Shown piece by piece: positions 22,767 to 33,400 of a stretch of 64,000 nucleotides of DNA (position 1 is its first letter; every line of letters begins with the position of its first letter). The DNA comes from Rhodococcus sp. SMB37 (GTDB lineage Bacteria; Actinomycetota; Actinomycetes; Mycobacteriales; Mycobacteriaceae): positions 62,001 to 126,000 of the forward strand of contig NZ_SLVY01000015.1 of assembly GCF_004345605.1 (NCBI RefSeq). Reading direction: 5' to 3'. Both the position numbers and the translations under genes were made by a program. Below the pieces are notes generated by a model. The model searched no databases and was not told the DNA's origin. It worked only from the letters and a program-made list of their open reading frames with translations.

Positions 22767-22789
22767 CCGCACTATCTTCGGCGCAAGCC

Positions 22790-22807
22790 CGGTCGTTCAC
22801 GGCCGGG
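22790..22807 (+). repeat. 18-bp direct repeat, left copy flanking tnpB
   Basis: CGGTCGTTCACGGCCGGG occurs here and again, identical, at 24075-24092. The copies bracket the TnpB gene and contain TTCAC, which may be a target-adjacent or end motif. Confidence 0.8.
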
Positions 22808-22860
22808 GACAGCCGATCCCTAGAGCGGTGTGTGTCGGTGGTCGCTTGTATGGTGCGGGC

Positions 22861-24009
22861 GTGCAACTTCGATACCGCTACCGCGTGTATCCGACGCCCG
22901 GCCAGCAGGACATGCTGGTCCGGTCGTTCGGATGCGCGCGGGTGGTGTTCAACGATGCGTTGCGCGCCCGGCAGGACGCGTATGCGGCGGGGGCGAAAAT
23001 CTCGGACACCGCCGTGCAGAAACAGGTGGTCACCGACGCGAAGAAGACTCCGCAGCGGGAATGGCTGGCCGAGGTGGCGTCGGTGGTGTTGGTCCAAGCC
23101 TGTCAGGACGCGCGTCGCGCGTATCGGAACTGGTTCGATTCACTGTCCGGGAAGCGGAAGGGCCGCAGGGTCGGGGCTCCGCGGTTCCGGTCTCGCAAGG
23201 ACACTCGGCAGTCGATCCGGCTCACTCGGAACGGGTTCGGTATCCGGGACAACGGGAAGTTGTATATCGCGAAGGTCGGCGAACTGAAAGTCGCCTGGTC
23301 ACGGGAGTTGCCGTCGGAGCCGAGCAGCGTCACGGTCGTGAAGGATTCGGCGGGCCGCTATTTCGCGTCGTTCGTGGTGGAGACCACCGATGTGCCGTTG
23401 CCGGAGTGCGATGCGGAGGTGGGGATCGATCTGGGTTTGACGACGTTTGCGGTCCTCTCGGATGGGAAGGTGATCGAGTCGCCGAGGTTCTTCCGCCAGG
23501 CCGAACGCAGACTCCGCAAGGCGCAGCAGAATCTGTCTCGCAAGGCGAAGGGCAGCAGGAATCGGGCCAAGGCACGTACCCGCGCGGCGAAGGCTCACGC
23601 GAGGGTGGCCGATGCCCGCAAAGATTGGGCGCACAAGCAATCCACGGCGATCGTCCGCGAGAACCAAGCGGTGTATGTCGAGGATTTGTGTGTCGTGGGG
23701 TTGGCGCGGACGCGGTTGGCGAAGTCGGTGCACGATGCCGGGTGGGGGATGTTCACTCGGTTGCTCGAGGAGAAGGCCGCCCGCTATGGGCGGGTCTTCC
23801 AGCGGGTGGACCGCTGGTTCCCGTCGTCGCGGTTGTGCTCGGTATGCGGCGTCTCGGACGGTCCGAAACCGTTGTCGGTGCGGGTGTGGACCTGTCAGGG
23901 GTGTGGTGTGGTCCACGACCGGGATCTGAATGCAGCACGAAATATCCTCGCCGCTGGACGGGCGGAGAGGCGAAACGCCTGCGGAGAGACGGTAAGTCTC
24001 TCCGCCTAG
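22861..24009 (+). CDS. tnpB: RNA-guided endonuclease TnpB family protein
   Basis: A 382-residue TnpB. The N-terminal RYRYRVYPTPGQQDMLVRSFG is typical. The RuvC active-site residues are Asp in VGIDLGLTTFAV (~residue 191), Glu in AVYVEDLCV (~residue 276) and Asp in VHDRDLNAARNI (~residue 355). The zinc finger has CSVCG and CQGCG pairs. All catalytic positions are intact, so it may be active as an omega-RNA-guided nuclease. GTG 22861 is chosen because it gives the conserved N-terminus. The long upstream extension of the frame runs into the ComB-like gene. Confidence 0.92.
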   Translation: MQLRYRYRVYPTPGQQDMLVRSFGCARVVFNDALRARQDAYAAGAKISDTAVQKQVVTDAKKTPQREWLAEVASVVLVQACQDARRAYRNWFDSLSGKRKGRRVGAPRFRSRKDTRQSIRLTRNGFGIRDNGKLYIAKVGELKVAWSRELPSEPSSVTVVKDSAGRYFASFVVETTDVPLPECDAEVGIDLGLTTFAVLSDGKVIESPRFFRQAERRLRKAQQNLSRKAKGSRNRAKARTRAAKAHARVADARKDWAHKQSTAIVRENQAVYVEDLCVVGLARTRLAKSVHDAGWGMFTRLLEEKAARYGRVFQRVDRWFPSSRLCSVCGVSDGPKPLSVRVWTCQGCGVVHDRDLNAARNILAAGRAERRNACGETVSLSA

Positions 24010-24074
24010 CGAGGAGCGCGACTCGATGAAACAGGAACCCACCGAAAGCGCCCAGCGGGCGCTGGTAGGAATCT

Positions 24075-24092
24075 CGGTCGTTCACGGCCGGG
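24075..24092 (+). repeat. 18-bp direct repeat, right copy flanking tnpB
   Basis: Identical to 22790-22807 and 65 bp after the tnpB stop codon. Confidence 0.8.
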
Positions 24093-24120
24093 AGGACGTC
24101 AACGTCCGCTGATCACCACA

Positions 24121-24353
24121 TCACCACATCAGGGTTTCGTCGCCCACGCGCACTCTGCCGAAGAAGCGTGTGCCTATGTCGGAGCCGTCGTGATTGTATC
24201 CGTTCATGAGGTCGGCGAGGTCGTCGAGGAGTGCTCGGAGCGCCGAACTCGGGGTGTCGATTCCGAATTCCGACACCCATCCCCAATCCTGCGGGACATT
24301 CTCCAAGGTGATCACGACCTCGGAATCATGGGGTGTCCGCACGGTATAGGTGA
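24121..24353 (-). pseudogene. 3' half of a gene interrupted by the Tn7-like transposon
   Basis: This is the C-terminal half (75 codons plus the 5-bp target copy) of a hypothetical gene. Its 5' half is at 33086-33400, on the same strand beyond the transposon. The fragment contains YTVRTPHDSEVVITLENVP, DWGW, LLDDLADLMNGYNHDGSD and ends RVRVGDETLMW. It has no start codon or ribosome site of its own. Joining codon 105 of the other half to 24348 restores an uninterrupted 180-residue frame. I do not recognise a named family or function. Any protein starting inside the transposon end would be a fusion artefact. Confidence 0.85.
24349..24353. repeat. Target-site duplication, left copy (ggtga)
   Basis: GGTGA directly precedes the TGTAGGGTCTCG terminus and is repeated directly after the other terminus at 33086-33090. 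A 5-bp duplication is the hallmark of Tn7/Tn5053/Mu-type insertion. Confidence 0.92.
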
Positions 24354-24365
24354 TGTAGGGTCTCG
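24354..24365 (+). repeat. Terminal inverted repeat, left end
   Basis: TGTAGGGTCTCG, matched exactly in inverted orientation at 33074-33085. The adjoining bases (AGACCCGTGGCC) differ from the other end. Confidence 0.92.
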
Positions 24366-24429
24366 AGACCCGTGGCCAAATCTCATCCGAGATGGCCACT
24401 CGGTGGCCAGTTGGCCATTTGGGTGAGAC
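24360..24429. promoter_or_regulatory. Cluster of candidate TnsB-binding repeats, left end
   Basis: Four TGGCCA palindromes lie at 24373-24378, 24393-24398, 24404-24409 and 24412-24417. Three composite units resemble GTCTCR-N5/6-RTGGCC: 24360-24377, 24380-24397 and, inverted, 24412-24429. Related units occur near the right end (32985-33001 and 33012-33027), as expected for transposase sites. Confidence 0.5.
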
Positions 24430-24511
24430 TGCCTTCGGCGTGGCTGCGTCGCGGAGCCGCGTAACGGGTGGATGATCCAACGAGTTACTTCCGAAGCGGG
24501 GAGATGCCGCG

Positions 24512-25279
24512 ATGGGGAACGCTACGGTGGTCGGATCATCGAAATCGCTTGCCGGTTTGGTGGATCTGCGTACGACGTTGCTCGCCCGCCGCCGTGCAGT
24601 GGACGGTGCCGAGGAGATCCGACCGCTGGCTGAGGTCGCGGTCGATGACATTGTCGCCTCCGCGCCGTGGCGGACCTTCCGCTGGCATGGAGGTCAGCAG
24701 CACTATTCGGGTACCTATTGGGCGGCGACCGAGTCCGATCATGTGATCTACGAATCGCGGCTGGAGCTGGCAAGGCTGCTGTTCGCGGACTTCGATGTGG
24801 GGGTGCAGCGCATTGCCGCGCAGCCGTTTCTGCTGCGGTGCCCTGTCGACGGCAAGGAACGCCGGCACATTCCGGACTACCTACTGCTGTCAAACGCTGG
24901 ACCGGTGATCGTGGATGTGAAACCTCGCCGGCGGTTGGAGTCGAAGAGTGTGGCGTTCACGTTCGAGTGGACCAGGTCGGTGGTGACCGAGCGGGGATGG
25001 CGGTACGAGGTGTGGAGCGAGCCGCCACCGATCGAGCTGGAGAATGTGCGGTTCCTCGCCGGCTATCGGCGGGCGTGGTTGTTCGATCCAGATGTACTCG
25101 ACGCGGTGAGAAGTGCAGCGCGGGAGGGGATCACGCTCGGACAATCGCTGTCTGCGGTGCCTGCCTATCCGGAACCGTCGATACGAGCGGCGCTGCTGCA
25201 TCTGCTGTGGCGGCAGGAGTTCAGTGTGGACATGACCCAGAGGTTGACCGCCGCCAGCGTGGTGCGGACCGCGCCATGA
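24512..25279 (+). CDS. tnsA: TnsA endonuclease of Tn7-like transposon
   Basis: A 255-residue protein with a restriction-endonuclease-like core. The acidic helix is in VIYESRLELARLLF, then the PD-(D/E)xK residues in RRHIPDYLLL and VIVDVKPRRR (near residues 115-140). The preceding segment FRWHGGQQHYSGTYWAA is common in actinobacterial TnsA-like proteins. The C-terminal ~60 residues resemble the winged-helix region that contacts TnsC. TnsA cuts the 5' ends so that the element leaves by cut-and-paste. The ATG follows GGGGAGATGCCGCG. It overlaps tnsB by ATGA. Confidence 0.88.
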   Translation: MGNATVVGSSKSLAGLVDLRTTLLARRRAVDGAEEIRPLAEVAVDDIVASAPWRTFRWHGGQQHYSGTYWAATESDHVIYESRLELARLLFADFDVGVQRIAAQPFLLRCPVDGKERRHIPDYLLLSNAGPVIVDVKPRRRLESKSVAFTFEWTRSVVTERGWRYEVWSEPPPIELENVRFLAGYRRAWLFDPDVLDAVRSAAREGITLGQSLSAVPAYPEPSIRAALLHLLWRQEFSVDMTQRLTAASVVRTAP

Positions 25280-27420
25280 GTGGAGCAGCGGCGCGGGTCG
25301 GTGTCGGGACTCGGTTCATGTACGACGGTGAGATCGTCGAGGTGATCGAGATGATCGCAACCGCCGTGGGCAATGAGGTCGTGCTCAGAACCAAGACGAA
25401 CGGTCAGATCCGCCGCGTCGCCATCAGAGAGCTGCTGACCTCAGAGAGTGCGCGTGTGATCCCCGAGGAGTCCGGGCCGTCCTCCGATGACCCCGGCGAG
25501 TTGTCTTCCGTCGTGACGGCGATGCTGACCGAACCCGACCGCATCCAGCTGCTCGAACGGGCTGAGCATGTGCGCGAGGTCCTGACCGGGTACAGGTCGG
25601 GTAGCGAGCAGTTGCCGGCGGCGGGCGAACCGCGCGGCGAGTACGGCCCGGCGGTGCCGTTGACGAGGCGGTATGCGGCCAAGGCCGCGGAGCTCGGGAT
25701 CGGGGTGCGGACACTGCGGCGCTGGGTCGGTGACTATCGCCGCGGCGGTGAGGCCGGCCTCGCCTCGGGCAGAGCGGCCGGGAATAGGCCGTTGGAGCAG
25801 CGCGACCAGCGCTGGGTCGAGACGGCGTTGGAGGTGATGGTCGAGCACACCGCTCAGTCGCGGCTGTCGCGGACGATGGTGATCGAACGAACGAACGCCC
25901 GGGTGATCGCGCGGTTCAGGGCAGGCGTGGTGCGGCTGCCGTCGCGGGCGACGGCGTTTCGCATACTCGAGGACTTGGAGCGGCGGCACCCGACGTTCCG
26001 GTTGAGCACCACACGCAACCGCGACATCGCGACCCGACCGGACGGGCCGTACGGGAAGCTGCGCCCGACCCGGCCAGGTGAGTACCTGTTGATGGACGCG
26101 ACACGGCTGGACGTGTTCGCGCTGGATCCGGTGACACTGCGGTGGGTGCAGGCCGAGCTCACGGTCGGGATGGACTGGTACACCCGCTGCATCGTCGGTA
26201 TCCGGCTCACCCCGGTGTCGACGAAGGCAGTGGATGCCGCCGCCACGTTGTATCAGGCGTTCCGGCCGCGCCCGGCGGGCAAGGACTGGCCCGCGCATGC
26301 GGTGTGGCCCGAACACGGGATTCCACGGTCGCTGCTGGTCGACGCCTCGGCGATCGACGGGCCGATGGCCGGGGCGGCGAGTCCGGCACTGGCGCCGGAG
26401 ACCATCGTGATCGACCACGGAAAGATCTACGTCTCCGAGCATCTGACCAGTGTGTGTCAACGGATGGGGATCTCGATCCAGCCGGCCCGGTTGCGGACCG
26501 GCCGCGACAAGGGGCCGGTGGAGCGGTTCTTCCGCACCCTCCGGGAGGACCTGCTGCAGGCCTTGCCCGGCTACAAGGGCCCGGATGTGCACTCGCGGGG
26601 AGTGGCGCCGGAGTCGGAGGCGTTCTTCTACCTCGACGAGTTGGAGGCGATCATCCGGGAGTGGGTGGCGGTGGTGTATCACCACCGGCCGCACGAGAGC
26701 CTGCTCGATCCGCATCTGCCGTCGGTGAAGATGTCGCCAGCGGTGATGTTCGAGCACGGTATCGCCCGCGCCGGCTACATCGAGGTGCCCCGCGATCCGG
26801 ACCTGGGGTACGAGTTCCTGAAGGTGCAGTGGCGCACCCTCCAGCATTACGGGTTCGAGGTGCACGGTCGCCGCTACCACGGCGAGCTGCCACCGGGATG
26901 CCGCGACGGCGCCAGCCCGTACCCGGACCGAGGCAAAGGCAGGGGCCGGTGGTGGCCACTGCACGTCGACCCGGACGACATCACCCGGATCTACCTGCGG
27001 GATCCGACCTCACGGCGGTGGTACCCGCTCGAATGGGAGCACGCCCGGTCGATGCAGATTCCGCTCAGCGAGGACGCATTGGCGTTCGCCCGCAGGCTGG
27101 CGCGAGCGAAGTGCACCTACCCCGACGACCGGATCGCGGTCGCCGACCTGCTCGAGCGATGGAACCTCGGCCTCGGATCGAGCATGACCGAACGGCGCAT
27201 GGCCCTGCGTATGGCACGCGAGGACGCGGCGCTCGACCTCGACCTCGACCCGGACGGACCGACAGACCCGACCGGACCGCCATCGGTGACGCGTCACGGC
27301 ACGTCGGCGCCGGTCGACGCCGCGCAGACCAGCGAGGACATCGGTGATGACGACGCCGAGGACGAACCGGACCGGCCCGACGACGGCGACTTCTACGCCG
27401 ATGCGCTGGAGTACCTGTGA
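25276..27420 (+). CDS. tnsB: TnsB/TniA-type DDE transposase
   Basis: A 714-residue DDE transposase of the Mu/Tn7 family. An N-terminal HTH region (LGIGVRTLRRWVGDYRRGG) precedes the RNase H-like core. Active-site residues are Asp in YLLMDATRLDVF (~residue 274), Asp in IVIDHGKIYVSE (~379) and Glu in KGPVERFFRTLRED (~416). The C-terminal beta-barrel domain and an acidic Asp-rich tail follow. It binds the transposon ends and joins the 3' ends to target DNA. ATG 25276 overlaps tnsA. A longer frame from 24667 lies within tnsA and is not used. Confidence 0.93.
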   Translation: MSGAAARVGVGTRFMYDGEIVEVIEMIATAVGNEVVLRTKTNGQIRRVAIRELLTSESARVIPEESGPSSDDPGELSSVVTAMLTEPDRIQLLERAEHVREVLTGYRSGSEQLPAAGEPRGEYGPAVPLTRRYAAKAAELGIGVRTLRRWVGDYRRGGEAGLASGRAAGNRPLEQRDQRWVETALEVMVEHTAQSRLSRTMVIERTNARVIARFRAGVVRLPSRATAFRILEDLERRHPTFRLSTTRNRDIATRPDGPYGKLRPTRPGEYLLMDATRLDVFALDPVTLRWVQAELTVGMDWYTRCIVGIRLTPVSTKAVDAAATLYQAFRPRPAGKDWPAHAVWPEHGIPRSLLVDASAIDGPMAGAASPALAPETIVIDHGKIYVSEHLTSVCQRMGISIQPARLRTGRDKGPVERFFRTLREDLLQALPGYKGPDVHSRGVAPESEAFFYLDELEAIIREWVAVVYHHRPHESLLDPHLPSVKMSPAVMFEHGIARAGYIEVPRDPDLGYEFLKVQWRTLQHYGFEVHGRRYHGELPPGCRDGASPYPDRGKGRGRWWPLHVDPDDITRIYLRDPTSRRWYPLEWEHARSMQIPLSEDALAFARRLARAKCTYPDDRIAVADLLERWNLGLGSSMTERRMALRMAREDAALDLDLDPDGPTDPTGPPSVTRHGTSAPVDAAQTSEDIGDDDAEDEPDRPDDGDFYADALEYL

Positions 27421-28517
27421 CCATCGCCCTGATCCGGCAGCGTCTGCAGGACTACGCGCCGCTGGGCAACGTGGCGCTCTCCCGCAAGGAGGGGTGGCGC
27501 GAGTTCGCCGACGCCCCTTCCCTGGTCGCGCCGCAGGTGCTGACCCACACGCAACTGCGCGCGCTCAGCGCGGACGATGCCGAGGTCTACAACCATTTCC
27601 GGCAGCTGTGGCACGCGAACCTGGGCCCGATCCGGACCCCACAACTGACCGCGCTGCACGAGCAGCTCTCGACCGTGGTCGACAGCAACCTCCAGTTCGG
27701 CGACAAGGCCAAGGGCGCGGTCGCGATCGACGCGTACCCCGGCCTGGGCAAGACGACGTCGGTGTTGGCGTTCGCCAAGGCGTTCCACCGCCGTGAGATC
27801 CGGATCAAGGGCACCCACACCCGCGAGGGGCACCAGCGGTGGCCGGTGTGCCGGGTCGGGTTGACCGGCAACACCGGGCTCAAGGAGTTCAACCGGGCGA
27901 TGCTCGAGTTCTACGCCCACCCCGGGACCACCCGCGGCACCAGCGCCGACCTGTCCCGCCGCACCCTGGACTGTGTGACCTCCTGCGAGACACGGCTTTT
28001 GGTAATCGATGATCTGCATTTCCTGAGATTGCACGCCACCAGCGGGGTGGAGATCAGCAACCACTTCAAGTACGTCGCCAACGAGTTCCCGGTCACCGTG
28101 GTGTTCATCGGGGTCAAGCTCGCCGACCGTGGCCTGTTCGCCGAGGCGCAGACGGCGCGGCGCACCACGCTGGTGGGGATGCGGCCGTTCGTCATCGACA
28201 CCGACACCGGCCGCCGCGAGTGGCGGACGATGCTGTTGGCGATCGAGCAGGGGCTGGTGCTGGCCGAGAAATATCCCGGCATGCTCGCCGACGATCTGTC
28301 GGACTATCTGTTCGCCCGCAGTACCGGCCACATCGGGTCGCTGATGGTGCTGATCAACCGCGGCTGCCATCGCGCGGTCGCCGGCGGCCGGGAACGCCTC
28401 GATACCGGCGTGTTGGACGCAGTGAGCAACGACGAGGACGCCGAGACCGCGCGGCGAGAACTGCAGGCTGCGATCGAGGCGCGGCGCATCACCACCCGGC
28501 CGCCCCGCCGCCGATGA
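27417..28517 (+). CDS. tnsC: TnsC/TniB-type AAA+ ATPase
   Basis: A 366-residue AAA+ regulator. Walker A is AYPGLGKTTSVLAFAKAF (residue ~107) and Walker B is RLLVIDDLHFLRL (residue ~195). Arg and sensor segments lie in LVGMRPFVIDT and ARSTGHIGSLMVLINRGC. Size and layout are nearer to TniB than to the larger TnsC of Tn7. It links target selection (TniQ) to the transposase through ATP. GTG 27417 overlaps tnsB by GTGA, and the stop overlaps tniQ by ATGA. Confidence 0.92.
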   Translation: MTIALIRQRLQDYAPLGNVALSRKEGWREFADAPSLVAPQVLTHTQLRALSADDAEVYNHFRQLWHANLGPIRTPQLTALHEQLSTVVDSNLQFGDKAKGAVAIDAYPGLGKTTSVLAFAKAFHRREIRIKGTHTREGHQRWPVCRVGLTGNTGLKEFNRAMLEFYAHPGTTRGTSADLSRRTLDCVTSCETRLLVIDDLHFLRLHATSGVEISNHFKYVANEFPVTVVFIGVKLADRGLFAEAQTARRTTLVGMRPFVIDTDTGRREWRTMLLAIEQGLVLAEKYPGMLADDLSDYLFARSTGHIGSLMVLINRGCHRAVAGGRERLDTGVLDAVSNDEDAETARRELQAAIEARRITTRPPRRR

Positions 28518-30882
28518 CCGAGGTGCGGTCCCTGCCGATCCGGGTGGCCCCGCTGCCCGGAGAGGCGATCGATTCCTGGCTCGAGGCCATCGCGCACCGC
28601 ACCGGCACGACATTCGGTGACCTGGACACGGCCCTGCGCCCCGACGACAGCACTGCCGCAGACAGGGGTCGGCGCCCGAGCAGGTGGCCGATGCACCTGC
28701 GCCCGAACGACGTGGACACCATCGCCACGGCGGCGGACCTGCCCACTACCACCGTCGAGGCGATGACGCTGGCCCGCTACGACGGCATCGCCCTGTCGCT
28801 CGCCGACGGGAAGGGGCGATCCGCCGTGGGGTGGCCCTGGGGCCGCGGGCGCCGATCCCGGTACTGCCCGCACTGCCTGGCCGAGTCCGGCGGACGGTGG
28901 CACCTGCAGTGGCGGCTGGGGTGCGTGTTCGCCTGCCTCGACCACCACTGCCTGCTGGCGGACACCTGCCCGGACTGCGGAAGCTTCCAACGGCGTAGCC
29001 GTCCCCTCCGCGGACTGGTTCCGAGTCCGGGCCACTGCGCCCACCGGAGCGCGGACACCGCTCGCCCACCGGGGTTCGCCCGGTGCGGAGCAGACCTGAC
29101 CTCGGCGCCGGTACTGCGGCTGCGCCCGGATCACCCGGCGATACGGGCGCAGCACCGGGTGCTCGAGGCCCTCACCTGCGGCCAGGGCACGTTCGGGGTG
29201 TACGCCGACCACCCCCATCCGGCCCGCGCGGTGCTGGCCGATCTGCACGCCCTCGCCTCCCGCGTCCTCGCCTACGGCCCCGCCGAAGCGATCGCCGAGC
29301 GGGTTCCCGCCGACCTCGCCGACGCGCTCACCCGGATTCGGTCCTCCGCATCCGCCGTACCGGTACGAAGATCGGAGCTGTCGAGGGCCGGTGGGGCGAC
29401 CGCGCCGGCCGTCGCGGTGACCGCGACCGCGGCCGTGCTGGAGCGGCCCGACATCGCCGAAGCCGGCGAGGCGTTGCGGTGGCTGGTGCACGGCGGTCGG
29501 CGTCTGGGCCGGCAGGTCGACGCCGGAACCATCTGCGACTGGGGCAGCGACACCAGCACGACCTTGGCGGCCATCCAGCTCGCCGCGTTGCGGCCACTGT
29601 TCGTCCGCGCCGTCGATCAGCTGCGGTATCGCAGCGCCGCCGCGGTTCCGAGCTACCCGTCGGCAAGCGCCACCGCCGTGGACGACGCCGCCCGCCGCAT
29701 CCCGTCCCTGCTGTGGCCGCAATGGTCGCTGCAGTGCACGGTGCCGCCGTGCAGCTCGACGCAGGTCCGACCGGCCCTGTCGGCGGCGCTGATGCTGGTG
29801 GGCACCACCCTGACCGTCGGCGAGGCCGCCGACCGCCTGGGATCTGCGGTCCGAGCGGGCGGAATCACCCGCACGCTGGCCTCCCTGCGGAACTCTCCAC
29901 ACTGGGGCGACACCCTGACCGCGCTGACCCGACTGGCGGACCACCTGGGCACCGAGGCGCCCCCGATCGACTACGACCGGCGCCGCCGCCTGGACTACCG
30001 AGCCCTGCTGCCCGACGCACTCTGGGACGAGATCTGCCGCCGAACCGGCACACCGCCCGGCGCCGGCCAGAAGGTAGACCTCGTCCGCTGCCTGCTATTC
30101 GAACGACTCAGCGGGCTCCCCGCGTCCCGGTCCCGTTCCTCGCGGCCGGTTACGACGTCCGCGCGAGATTGTCCGAGTTCCCGCGCGAACTCACCCCCGC
30201 ACTGGCCGCGCTGCTCGACGAGGCGGCCCGCGGGTTCCTCGACGACCAGGGACTCGGCGCAGAACCGGTGTCGTGGCATCCCCCACCGCATCTGCTCGAC
30301 GGGCTCGGTCTGCCCGGCCCCGATCCCGCCGCAGTGAACCTCGTCGACCTGCATGGTCTGACTCGCCGCGACCACATCGCGCTCTCGGAGATCGCGCGGC
30401 AACTGGGCACCACCGTCGAGGTGATCCGCTATCTCCTCGAACACCACCCCGCTCCCGCATCGTCCACTGTCGCACAGCGGTCCGGGCGACGCGCCGCCCG
30501 GCACACGGCCGAGGAAGCGATGAGTCGTTCGCAGTTCATCGACCTGTATGTCGTGCAGCGCCGCACCCTCGCCGACATCGGCGCGCTGCTCGGCGTCAGC
30601 AGGAAGGCGGCGGGTCGACTGGCCCGGCAGCACGGCATCACACCCCACACCGGTGGGCCCCCGGTCGATCCGGCCTGGCTCTACGACCAGTACGTCACAC
30701 CCCACACCCGTGGACCCCCGATCGATCCGGAGTGGTTCCACGACCAGTACGTCAATCAGCGGCGAACCTTGCGGGAACTGGGACACGAGGTGGGCCGCGA
30801 TGTCTCCCGGATGAGCCGGATCGCGAAAAGGTACGGCATCCCGATACGTACACCGAGCGAGGCGTGCCGTAGGCACAACTGA
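28514..30882 (+). CDS. tniQ: TniQ/TnsD-type target selector, interrupted by a -1 frameshift
   Basis: The N-terminal TniQ domain is clear: SLPIRVAPLPGEAIDSWLEA, then a zinc-binding block with CPHC (~residue 118), CLDHHC and CPDCG. In the first frame the protein becomes nonsense near 30120 and stops at 30337. The minus-one frame from about 30118 continues with family-like sequence (VPVPFLAAGYDVRARLSEF) and two HTH-type segments to a stop at 30882. The break lies in CTCCCCGCG; one extra C would join the parts into about 789 residues. The gene is therefore a recent mutant, a programmed -1 frameshift, or a sequencing error. The C-terminus has a 19-residue tandem repeat. Confidence 0.85.
30638..30751 (+). 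repeat. 57-bp tandem duplication inside tniQ
   Basis: Two adjacent 57-bp units (30638-30694, 30695-30751) differ at a few positions. Each codes for 19 residues (TPHTGGPPVDPAWLYDQYV and TPHTRGPPIDPEWFHDQYV). The length is a multiple of three, so the frame is kept. Confidence 0.85.
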
Positions 30883-31445
30883 GCGAGGCACACCGATGGG
30901 CAACTTCCGTCGATCGTGACGCACGGACCGGGTCTTCGAACTACACGGAAATCACCGGGCATGCCCCCAGCCGCCGAGCACCCCCGGCCCGCAGCATGGG
31001 CACCCGATCCCGCTGGACGATAAGCGAAATTCGACGAAGGCAGGGATCGACCCCTACCGGGACCATCGATACCTCTCGCATCAGGCCGGCACTCCCGCGG
31101 AATTTGCCGGGATCATGGGCAGAGGCGCCGGCATCCATCAGTTCCTCGTCACACTGAAGGTGCCGACCATCACGATCATCCCCGCCACTGATGCGGGCCA
31201 TCTCAGCAGCACTGAACCTGACGCTCCCCACACTCGGGGTCGTCATCCAGCGAGACGGTCAACAGACGGTTGCTGGCGACTCGCCGGGATAGCTCAACGG
31301 AACCAAGACCTTAAAGAATCAAAGCAGATTTCTAACAAGCTAACTTTCTATCGACATTTGTGCGGGCATCCGAGGCGCGTGCGATCAGTGCTGTGCCCCG
31401 ATTTTCTCAAGGACTACTAGAGCGGACCCTCTACACGACACCCGA
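30883..31445. other. Transposon interior with no supported gene
   Basis: About 560 bp between tniQ and the cargo genes. Composition falls in steps, with an A/T-rich stretch near 31300-31360. Short frames exist on both strands but none has a ribosome site or recognisable sequence. It may hold decayed cargo or the 3' region of the convergent operons. Confidence 0.5.
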
Positions 31446-32078
31446 TCACCCTATCGTCGCAATGTCGAGAACAAGGCTCGATGGATGGTCCAGTACCTTC
31501 GCACGGAAGGGTGGCCTGTCGCCTTGCACCCCGATGAACGACTGAGTAATTCCACCGACCACAGACTGAACGATTCCGCCCGCGCCTGCGCTCGGTCTCA
31601 AATACAGACGAGACACAATTGCGGCGTCCGGTTCCACAAGCGGGTTCGATACGCCATACGAGACTGCCTGTTCATCCACTTCGATGGAAGTACCCATCAT
31701 GTCGACTTGAATAATGGAAGGAGAATTTATCTCTAACGGAAAACCGCCTCCAAACGGAACCGCCTCACTGACGTACTCGGCCTTCCATGCGATGGTACCG
31801 ACGCCATCGAACTCATACACGATGCGGTCAAATTCGGGATTCGTCTCGATCCGAATATCCACCACGATCGGCCCTGAGGCTTGGGGCGGTGAGCCCTCAT
31901 CCCGGGGAATTGAATTCTCCTCGGTCGGTGGCGTCGATGGAGGGGTCCCCACTTCTATTTGGCCAGTCTGGGTATCGGCAGAATTCGAAGGGGCTTCCGA
32001 TCCTGGAACATTATCATTCCCGCACCCGAAAGACGTCATAAATACCGCTGCTGTGATTCCCAATAATCTCAGCGACAT
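31446..32078 (-). CDS. Secreted lipoprotein with AMIN-like domain (transposon cargo)
   Basis: A 210-residue protein with a signal peptide (LLGITAAVFMTSFGC) and a likely lipidated Cys19, then a Thr/Pro/Glu-rich linker to about residue 65. The C-terminal domain GPIVVDIRIETNPEFDRIVYEF to FRAKVLDHPSSLVLDI has the beta-rich pattern of AMIN-like domains, which in other bacteria bind the cell wall. ATG 32078 is used because it puts the signal peptide at the N-terminus. GC is clearly lower than in the chromosome, which suggests foreign origin. The role within the transposon is unknown. Confidence 0.72.
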   Translation of the reverse strand: MSLRLLGITAAVFMTSFGCGNDNVPGSEAPSNSADTQTGQIEVGTPPSTPPTEENSIPRDEGSPPQASGPIVVDIRIETNPEFDRIVYEFDGVGTIAWKAEYVSEAVPFGGGFPLEINSPSIIQVDMMGTSIEVDEQAVSYGVSNPLVEPDAAIVSRLYLRPSAGAGGIVQSVVGGITQSFIGVQGDRPPFRAKVLDHPSSLVLDIATIG

Positions 32079-32130
32079 CGCCGATGCCTGCAATAGAAAC
32101 CTACTCTCAGCCTGTCGATTCAAATACCAA

Positions 32131-32502
32131 TCATTCGCAGAGCCAACACCATCCGACAGTTTGCGCATCGAATCCCAGGTCCGGATTAGACGACAAGCCC
32201 CATACTGTACGCAAGGATCCTGAGCAATTTCCTGACCAGAAATCGATGGGTCCAACGTTATTAACTACCGAGCGGACAGAAATGACAGTTGGGCCACAAT
32301 ACGCCTGTGCGTTGACGGTGAAATCTCGGCGTGCGCCCGTGTAATTTGGCCCAGACCACGTGCATATCGTAGCGATTCCGCACGCTGGAGGTTGAGCATT
32401 GGCCGGCGCACCCAATGGTGAGACAGCACTTGCTGCCGCGAATCCAAACATCAAGGCGGCGACTCCGGCGAACCGTTTGACGGACTTGGATAGATGATTC
32501 AT
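32131..32502 (-). CDS. Small secreted cysteine-rich protein, peptidase inhibitor I36-like (transposon cargo)
   Basis: A 123-residue protein. The signal peptide likely ends APANA (cleavage after residue 36). The mature part has six cysteines, enough for three disulfides, and the segment ICTWSGPNYTGARRDFTV resembles the beta/gamma-crystallin-like fold of I36 inhibitors. GGTGGGGTGG lies before the ATG. It is 52 bp upstream of the lipoprotein gene on the same strand, so the two are probably cotranscribed. The inhibitor assignment is by pattern only. Confidence 0.65.
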   Translation of the reverse strand: MNHLSKSVKRFAGVAALMFGFAAASAVSPLGAPANAQPPACGIATICTWSGPNYTGARRDFTVNAQAYCGPTVISVRSVVNNVGPIDFWSGNCSGSLRTVWGLSSNPDLGFDAQTVGWCWLCE

Positions 32503-32530
32503 TCAACCCACCCCACCTAGTTGTTATGAC

Positions 32531-32550
32531 CTGCGGATAATAATCCGCAG
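32531..32550. promoter_or_regulatory. Inverted repeat upstream of the cargo operon
   Basis: CTGCGGAT-AATA-ATCCGCAG has perfect 8-bp arms around a 4-nt centre. It ends 29 bp before the start of the I36-like gene, at the place of an operator or a 5' leader hairpin. Confidence 0.55.
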
Positions 32551-32984
32551 TTGAAGTGATGCTACTGAGAGATATGCGATTGAGTCGGTCATTTCGGGCA
32601 GGTAGCCTCGTCAAAACGTAGCAGGGTGCTGGTAGTGGCGGCGACAGAATCGGCGGATTACCAGGCCAGGCCTTCGCAGCCACCGCCGACGCGGATCCAC
32701 GTCTGACTGCGCTGACCTGCATACTCGCCCAATACCCCACCCTACTTACCCGGCATCCTCACATCGATCGGTCGATCGCCATCACCGTGGGGAACCGCCG
32801 CAGCATCATTCATTCTCGGCTTCAGAGCGCTACGAGACTTGTCGATCCAGGCCCGCCCAACCGCGAGAAATCGCGTTCCTGTTCCCTGTCATCATCGACG
32901 GGACGATCCTGCAAGCGAAGATGGGTGTGGTCACCCGCCGACACGACCGCCGGGCACGCGCGCTTCGAAATGTTCCTGAAGAAA

Positions 32985-33027
32985 TGCCATAGCATTGAGA
33001 CAAATCGCGGAGGCCACACCATGAGAC
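32985..33027. promoter_or_regulatory. Candidate TnsB-binding repeats, right end
   Basis: Read on the minus strand, GTCTCATGGTGTGGCC (33027-33012) and GTCTCAATGCTATGGCA (33001-32985) share the GTCTCA...TGGC pattern of the left-end units. Spacing varies by one or two bases, so the assignment is tentative. Confidence 0.4.
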
Positions 33028-33073
33028 AACGGGCGAACGTGCAGATCGCAGCGTCCCGAAATGTCACCGGCCG

Positions 33074-33085
33074 CGAGACCCTACA
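33074..33085 (-). repeat. Terminal inverted repeat, right end
   Basis: CGAGACCCTACA on the plus strand, the exact reverse complement of 24354-24365. Confidence 0.92.
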
Positions 33086-33090
33086 GGTGA
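33086..33090. repeat. Target-site duplication, right copy (ggtga)
   Basis: GGTGA directly after the ACA terminus, identical to 24349-24353. Confidence 0.92.
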
Positions 33091-33400
33091 CGTCGGCAGG
33101 CGCATCTGCAATCGGGTCGTGCACGGCGGGTCGGGACGGCTGTGTCGACGGTGCGAATACGACGCGCGCGAAAGCGATGTCCTCGCGGATCATCTCCGCG
33201 ATACGCGACAGGTTCGAGTGTCGGCCGACACGGTGGTGCCGGGCACCGTACGTCCGGTCTCCGGAGTGCCGAGGGCTGCGTGACGCGGTCAGGGTCCTGT
33301 CGAGCATGCGCTGTGCTGCGGCGCGTTCACCGTCACCGGTGCCGGGGTGGTCGATCAGCGCCCGCAGACGCATGATCCGAAGGGTCACGTTGCCTGCCAT
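33086..33400 (-). pseudogene. 5' half of a gene interrupted by the Tn7-like transposon
   Basis: The first 105 codons of a hypothetical gene on the minus strand, starting at ATG 33400 and ending in HDPIADAPADVT at the transposon. Motifs include LRALIDHPGTGDGERAAAQR and DRTYGARHHRVGRHSNLSRI. The frame continues into the transposon only as artefact. Together with the 24121-24353 fragment it makes a 180-residue protein without any stop or shift. No named family is recognised. The original gene's loss is evidently tolerated. Confidence 0.85.

Follow-up and report, generated by a model that had tools for sequence, protein, structure and literature searches.

A Tn7-like transposon away from its probable home sites in Rhodococcus sp. 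SMB37, and an actinobacterial family found most often behind dnaB

The stretch of DNA analysed here (the window: 64,000 nucleotides of contig NZ_SLVY01000015.1 from Rhodococcus sp. SMB37) carries a Tn7-like element of 8,732 bp at 24354-33085. It is very probably a transposon of the actinobacterial TnsA_like_Actin branch whose insertion site is chosen by TniQ, the site being dnaB in most relatives, and whose window copy missed the home sites. On balance, we also favour a wider picture, in which a widespread actinobacterial family resides at dnaB, relies on one large helix-turn-helix (HTH) TniQ, has switched homes in sub-lineages and carries private ends read by three TnsB residues, the window copy being an escape of a plasmid-homing branch. 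Under that picture the end sequence is private to each element, and therefore an element need not mobilise its neighbours, not even those arranged in tandem with it at dnaB. The anatomy of the element, its ends, the duplication, the empty site, the recurring sites and the co-variation of ends with TnsB are legible in the DNA itself.

The boundaries of the element, first proposed in a sequence-only reading of the window, are confirmed to the base. The 12-bp end TGTAGGGTCTCG starts at 24354 on the forward strand and its exact inverse ends at 33085, with GGTGA on either flank as an exact 5-bp duplication. Each strand of the complete 6.2-Mb genome has a single copy of the 12-mer, the two copies being the ends of the element, and the same pattern read backwards does not occur. 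When up to two mismatches were allowed, nine matches were found in the window against a chance expectation of 4.95, and therefore only the exact end pair is informative. When the surroundings of tnsB were searched blindly for inverted TG...CA end pairs bearing a 5-bp duplication, the element's own pair ranked first (score 13.5; runner-up 6). This placement is further strengthened by the empty-site check that the sequence-only reading had proposed, carried out across 18 genomes of the genus Rhodococcus (own genome included): the joined flanks align gap-free at the junction in G010 (80% over 646 bp) and in G011 (77% over 670 bp); in both, the target gene, which the window element splits, is a single open frame of about 179 codons. 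Because these two same-genus genomes keep the target gene uninterrupted, we regard the window insertion as real. The interrupted gene itself gave no match in Pfam or NCBIfam. The window also holds his and trp genes, pyruvate kinase and the nuo operon (recognised by reading the translations of open reading frames (ORFs) rather than by domain searches), and the location of the element therefore points to the chromosome.

Domain searches returned the gene order claimed earlier, namely tnsA, tnsB, tnsC/tniB and tniQ followed by two cargo genes, and the proposed Tn7-like, cut-and-paste gene content holds up in TnsA, TnsB, TnsC and TniQ domains together with PDB matches (the reaction itself we infer). 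TnsA scores above the curated cut-off of the NCBIfam subfamily TnsA_like_Actin (NF033179), and its residues E81, D122 and K137 are kept in 74, 74 and 73 of 74 relatives, respectively. TnsB matches the TnsB of a CRISPR-associated transposon in PDB (E 1.5e-17), and D273, D379 and E415 are present in 71/71 aligned relatives; we take all six residues to be catalytic. TnsC is as compact and TniB-like as had been suggested, its PDB matches being the TnsC of Tn6677, Tn7 and ShCAST. The element also appears free of any CRISPR link, as stated before, since its sole close direct repeat of at least 20 nt is a 57-nt duplication within tniQ and no cas domain was found among its ORFs in Pfam and NCBIfam searches. 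The term "recent" is plausible in view of the exact duplication and intact ends, which do not date the insertion, and "complete" is not supported as stated because the tniQ frame, very large as claimed, is broken.

The commonest home of the family, judging from its collected relatives, is the 3' end of dnaB. A scan with the window TnsB gave 85 relatives, the best 80 of which were kept as 78 loci; 48 of these lie beside dnaB, 22 elsewhere and 8 lack a usable flank. In the 48 dnaB loci, dnaB is upstream of tnsA and in the same direction, and in 35 of the 78 loci the tnsA-side end falls 7-13 nt past the dnaB stop. The identity of DnaB was established by TIGR00665 and PF03796 for two loci and by likeness to the DnaB tail of the genus for the others. 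Among the further dnaB loci, L073 has 241 nt between dnaB and the element, L100 has its element behind another set of tns genes, L050 is a short contig on which the dnaB tail alone is visible, and ten have dnaB 1.0-4.1 kb before tnsB and no motif-type end (L070, L090, L096, L099, L102, L103, L104, L109, L112 and L116). The same end motif stands at the matching place upstream of tnsB in 58/78 loci, rather than different ends further out, under a strict scan (a looser version was dropped for its many chance matches). We read the dnaB placement as probable repeated site-specific insertion, comparable to that of Tn7 behind glmS.

The lineage of the window element itself appears to reside for the most part at a non-coding sequence conserved among Rhodococcus plasmids. 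In a TniQ tree of 60 rows (TniQs below 600 aa left out, the window's kept), the window pairs with Rhodococcus koreensis L049 as its sister (99/97); the group that contains them, 22 rows of which 16 are at dnaB sites, is weakly resolved. Close TnsBs were found in 55 plasmid records, and the ten with 81-91% identity to the window TnsB are all from Rhodococcus. When flanks were compared among eight close elements (L190, L191 and L202-L207), six proved to have a common non-coding sequence outside the tnsA-side end (L191 and L202-L206; pairwise 70-88% over 63-698 bp), with differing last five bases before the end and, in L202, a shared part that ends about 43 bp short of it. The flanks of L190 and L207 are identical over 700 bp and are located elsewhere than the plasmid sequence. 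The shared sequence has matches at 169 places in 96 plasmid records, and an annotated gene lies under it at none of 40 listed places. It often occurs two to three times per plasmid (L208-L210 and others), by small hypothetical genes and in some by a ParB-domain gene.

The window element occupies neither home: its tnsA-side flank is another gene, and the dnaB end of its own genome is free. Its TnsB is nevertheless 81-91% identical to those of the plasmid-site group. Because its flanks match neither the dnaB ends nor the plasmid sequence (no likeness above shuffles), the window copy is best described as an off-site insertion into a chromosomal gene. This off-site status, the dnaB home of the family and the plasmid home of the lineage were all absent from the earlier interpretation.

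The broken tniQ offers another explanation for the odd location, namely untargeted insertion by an element that has lost its DNA-binding array, keeps a TniQ domain able to activate TnsC and so lands anywhere. The window tniQ is not one open frame; the break falls near 30.1 kb, between the TniQ-domain part (28514 to about 30.1 kb) and the HTH part (about 30.1 kb to 30882), which stand in different frames, and this position fits such a loss, as do flanks that resemble no known home site. The break may be a real mutation or an assembly error, and it may also postdate the insertion. In eight close relatives tniQ is open (L190 and L191 by translation; L202-L207 as a single annotated coding sequence), yet two of these, L190 and L207, also lie away from both dnaB and the plasmid sequence. 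Across the family as a whole, 13 of the 69 TniQ rows not cut by a contig end are below 700 aa and 7 of these 13 are at dnaB; a broken frame alone therefore does not explain the odd location of the window copy, and we consider untargeted insertion unlikely. Some of the short rows (L083, L086 and L115) may be naturally shorter. With regard to architecture, all six relatives scanned have a TniQ domain with several HTH matches further on, and five of the six have a LysR-type tail; a profile built from 19 TniQs found LysR regulators and gave a weak match to a PDB TniQ. The TniQs of the window, L190 and L191 are devoid of the LysR-type tail. As separate observations, the 57-nt tandem duplication of the window tniQ (30638-30751, copies 88% identical) lies inside the HTH part and is absent from the L190 and L191 proteins, and two TniQ-like genes are found at loci L055, L114 and L115.

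Off-site insertion by an otherwise site-selecting transposon remains our preferred reading, and the ends of the element reveal a second layer of family organisation. The tnsA-side ends of 59 elements (58 of the 78 loci and the window) follow a common 75-bp layout, in which a hexamer stands at positions 20, 40 and 51 and again, in inverted orientation, near 59; at least three exact copies of one 6-mer stand at the layout sites in 21/59 ends against 0.37 expected from shuffles. Hexamer agreement is 0.78-0.85 within an element as compared with 0.50-0.52 when shuffled between elements (z 11.9-13.3; 61 distinct ends after identical ones were dropped from 65), and hexamer position 4 is C at the first site in 61/61 distinct ends. 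The tnsA-side end of the window carries TGGCCA four times in register, and its distal end fits the family layout with hexamers other than TGGCCA. Loci for which the end-finding script gave no ends were left out (L176, L177, L179, L183-L186, L189, L200, L201, L035, L039, L043 and L044).

An unsupervised column scan of TnsB across 51 elements (54 before dropping TnsBs more than 97% identical) suggests that residues 142, 147 and 148 track the hexamer letters of the element's own ends. Hexamer positions 1 and 2 have residue 148 as their top column (z 12.4 and 5.8), position 3 has residue 142 (z 7.4) and position 6 has residue 147 (z 6.7); no column accounted for position 5 in this regression (best z 2.8). 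All three residues lie in one helix-turn-helix (HTH_28, residues 132-165, counted from 25279, a start codon assumed from relatives). In a sister-pair test (25 pairs, 528 columns; pairs formed by greedy nearest identity, not on a tree), residue 147 came first for position 6 (p 4.9e-6) and for position 5 (p 2.4e-3, uncorrected), residue 142 first for position 3 (p 1.5e-4, uncorrected), and residue 148 first for position 2 (p 4.0e-4) and second for position 1 (p 1.9e-3), both uncorrected. After correction for 528 columns, the pairing of residue 147 with position 6 is the only one to hold. Residue 147 also fits in plasmid relatives that were not part of the scan, with R147 and TGGCCA in L202-L204 and E147 and TGGCGG in L205-L207, one L206 site excepted; these are two clades, not six independent cases.

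Co-variation of this kind could also be a by-product of shared descent rather than of base reading, since hexamers are common to related elements and residues 142 and 148 are only nominal in sister pairs. Several pairings depart from the code too: R148 with C at position 1 in 1/31 (L063), S142 paired with G, T or C, E147 with C at position 6 in 2/10 and in the L198 group, Q147 with G at position 6 in L042, A142 with G at position 3 in L206, and E147 with mixed hexamers in L082/L169. Shared descent as the sole cause nevertheless seems improbable to us, given that four of the five variable positions (1, 2, 3 and 6) have their top columns in a seven-residue stretch of one helix-turn-helix, that residue 147 survives correction in sister pairs, and that relatives outside the scan follow it.

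The dnaB association may likewise be asked whether it was mostly inherited from a few old insertions, as near-copies such as L087, L088 and L121 (identical TniQ) would allow. When near-copies were removed (95% TnsB identity), 40 of the remaining 63 loci were still at dnaB, with 19 elsewhere and 4 without flank. The hosts span many genera, including Mycobacterium, Nocardia, Tsukamurella, Streptomyces, Pseudonocardia and Actinoplanes; the spacing to the dnaB stop is held at 7-13 nt while the intervening bases vary; and the dnaB end is free in 18/18 genomes of the window's genus. Taken together, these observations make inheritance quite an improbable account and argue for repeated site-specific insertion. 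The dnaB label requires 11 changes on the TniQ tree (shuffled mean 16.1; 2/500 shuffles as low), and therefore homes switched often.

Two groups of observations concern the dnaB loci in their own right. L073, L078, L118 and L100 represent tandem or remnant elements, with a right-end-like sequence abutting the end of the next element or with a second tns set between dnaB and the element. The dnaB genes of the window's genus (for example, L147) have open frames of 765-834 aa or 1076-1131 aa with a split DnaB match; we take the splitting insertions for probable inteins, the longer form with a second near the C-terminal part. Homing-endonuclease domains were found in the dnaB of L053.

For the window copy, the interrupted chromosomal gene might conceivably be a dedicated attachment site of its lineage. 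Two genomes of the genus have a conserved, unbroken copy of it, and other relatives use other recurrent sites, including gene ends: among more distant Rhodococcus elements, L192/L193 stand 17 nt after a gene (its L192 copy with a cutinase domain) and L198/L199 22-23 nt after a gene (its L198 copy with M23, SLT and NlpC domains). The window end lies inside its gene rather than behind it, and this flank recurs in none of the 78 loci nor in the eight closest relatives, leaving a single known insertion, so that we hold a dedicated site to be scarcely likely. As a further observation, two Streptomyces elements (L120 and L124) have matching left flanks beside a gene that, to our eye, reads like Ku, and this may perhaps be another home site. 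Arrival on the chromosome by homologous or plasmid-borne recombination, which the plasmid location of the closest relatives and the recombining Tn7706 copies described in the main text of PMC12915292 might bring to mind, is very nearly negligible in view of the exact 5-bp duplication and the empty site that is gap-free on both sides.

Several points weigh against the site-selecting transposon and home-site interpretation. The dnaB share is not a census because the loci were picked by likeness to the window TnsB; exact 5-bp duplications were found in only 13/78 loci; and the link between TniQ and site is correlational, with the 11 tree changes and one set of identical TniQ rows in both groups. 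A right end with matching duplication was found for none of the plasmid relatives (L191 and L202-L207), no position could be assigned to the right ends of L190 and L191, and the shared plasmid flanks may partly reflect common descent, chiefly in L205/L206 (88% over 698 bp). TnsA gave no PDB sequence match.

In the mechanism that we propose, TnsB would bind the hexamer arrays at both ends (putative sites), cuts by TnsA and TnsB would excise the element, and TnsC would connect the transposase with the target. The single large TniQ would pick the target through its C-terminal HTH array, like TnsD in Tn7. In most relatives TniQ would direct the element to the dnaB end, 7-13 nt past the stop and with the tnsA side toward dnaB, and in the window's own lineage mostly to the conserved plasmid sequence instead; the window copy would have missed both kinds of site, entered a chromosomal gene and left the 5-bp duplication. 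Both the cut-and-paste reaction and the role of TniQ as reader of dnaB or plasmid sequence are what we infer from gene content and sites.

Tn7 itself makes a 5-bp duplication and inserts with its tnsA side facing the attachment gene. The window family shares with Tn7 tnsA, a DDE tnsB, an AAA+ tnsC, a TniQ-domain selector with a C-terminal DNA-binding part, subterminal arrays of TnsB sites (putative here) and insertion behind a conserved gene, as set out in the main texts of PMC8649781 and PMC11406308. The element is of a kind already known. The family differs in that its commonest attachment gene is dnaB rather than glmS, in having a single TniQ (mostly 760-900 aa) where Tn7 has TnsD plus TnsE, in a TnsC of 366 aa as compared with the 523-aa Tn7 chain in PDB, and in the own hexamer of each element. 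The Actinobacteria-dominated clade 2 of Tn7-like transposons, a candidate clade for the window family, matches it in phylum and core genes, and, according to the main text of PMC8649781, no clade 2 member had been experimentally characterised as of 2021. Tn7706 of Rhodococcus erythropolis (main text of PMC12915292) is Tn7-like, with tnsA, tnsB, tniQ and tniB, and mostly on plasmids; it is unlike the window element in its 19,377 bp and other cargo, the two being set side by side by description, not sequence. The TnsD, TnsF and TniQ selectors in the main text of PMC10293859 combine a TniQ core with C-terminal parts that vary and that bind the attachment site.

The word dnaB appears in none of the main texts of PMC8649781, PMC10293859, PMC11406308, PMC12915292 and PMC12231136, DnaB serves as a negative control only in the main text of PMC10991518, and words beginning with Actino are absent from that of PMC10293859. 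Neither the dnaB home nor the end code turned up in the literature searched (main texts, not supplements or subscription papers), and the dnaB home may be listed elsewhere. If true, dnaB would join the known Tn7-like home sites glmS, tRNA genes and parE (main text of PMC11406308) and comM (main text of PMC10293859). TnsB-DNA structures show chiefly backbone contacts (main text of PMC10201428); natural variation here points to three TnsB residues and the bases that they track, which makes an open matter testable. The end code, if confirmed, would predict compatibility between transposases and ends and could aid orthogonal insertion tools for actinomycetes.

Table 1. Coordinates of the element, its ends, genes and interrupted target in the window
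Feature	Position	Strand	Evidence or remark
Target-site duplication GGTGA, tnsA-side copy	24349..24353		sequence
Target-site duplication GGTGA, second copy	33086..33090		sequence
tnsA-proximal end	24354..24428	+	TGTAGGGTCTCG; TGGCCA hexamer at 24373, 24393, 24404, 24412
tnsA-distal end	32976..33085	-	inverse of TGTAGGGTCTCG; GTCTCA at 33022-33027, 32996-33001
tnsA-distal end, hexamer-like sites	33061-33066, 32984-32989	-	family layout of ends
Interrupted host gene, 5' part	33086..33400	-	gene (~179 codons) intact in G010, G011
Interrupted host gene, 3' part	24121..24353	-	intact in G010, G011
tnsA, TnsA-like endonuclease subunit	24512..25279	+	NF033179 250.5 bits (cut-off 110); PF08722 29.4 (cut-off 26.5)
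tnsB, DDE transposase	25276..27420	+	domain and PDB matches; HTH_28, residues 132-165
tnsC / tniB, AAA+ ATPase, 366 aa	27417..28517	+	PF05621; PDB TnsC matches
tniQ, predicted target selector	28514..30882	+	PF06527 84.1 bits; TniQ domain first, HTH array second
Cargo gene, AMIN-like domain protein	31446..32255	-	PF24837 65.4 bits
Cargo ORF, peptidase inhibitor I36 domain	32131..32502	-	PF03995 22.3 bits, barely over cut-off 21.1

The second cargo ORF overlaps the start of the AMIN-like ORF, and PADLOC gave no defence match for the two cargo proteins, its matches in the element being Tns/TniQ models only. Directly left of the element, within 22789-24103, lies a TnpB gene (RNA-guided nuclease family); further copies of the DNA around its 3' end, as far as about 24103, stand at many other places in the own genome and in genus relatives. 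The same genome holds a second Tn7-like element (contig 23, L125, 11496-18721) with tnsA-tnsB-tnsC-tniQ and the end TGTAGGTTCTC, which differs from the window element in a TnsB 44% identical to that of the window, a TniQ of 314 aa, an adjoining P-type ATPase and the hexamer TGTCAG. TnsBs of the L125 type were found in 7/18 genomes of the genus.

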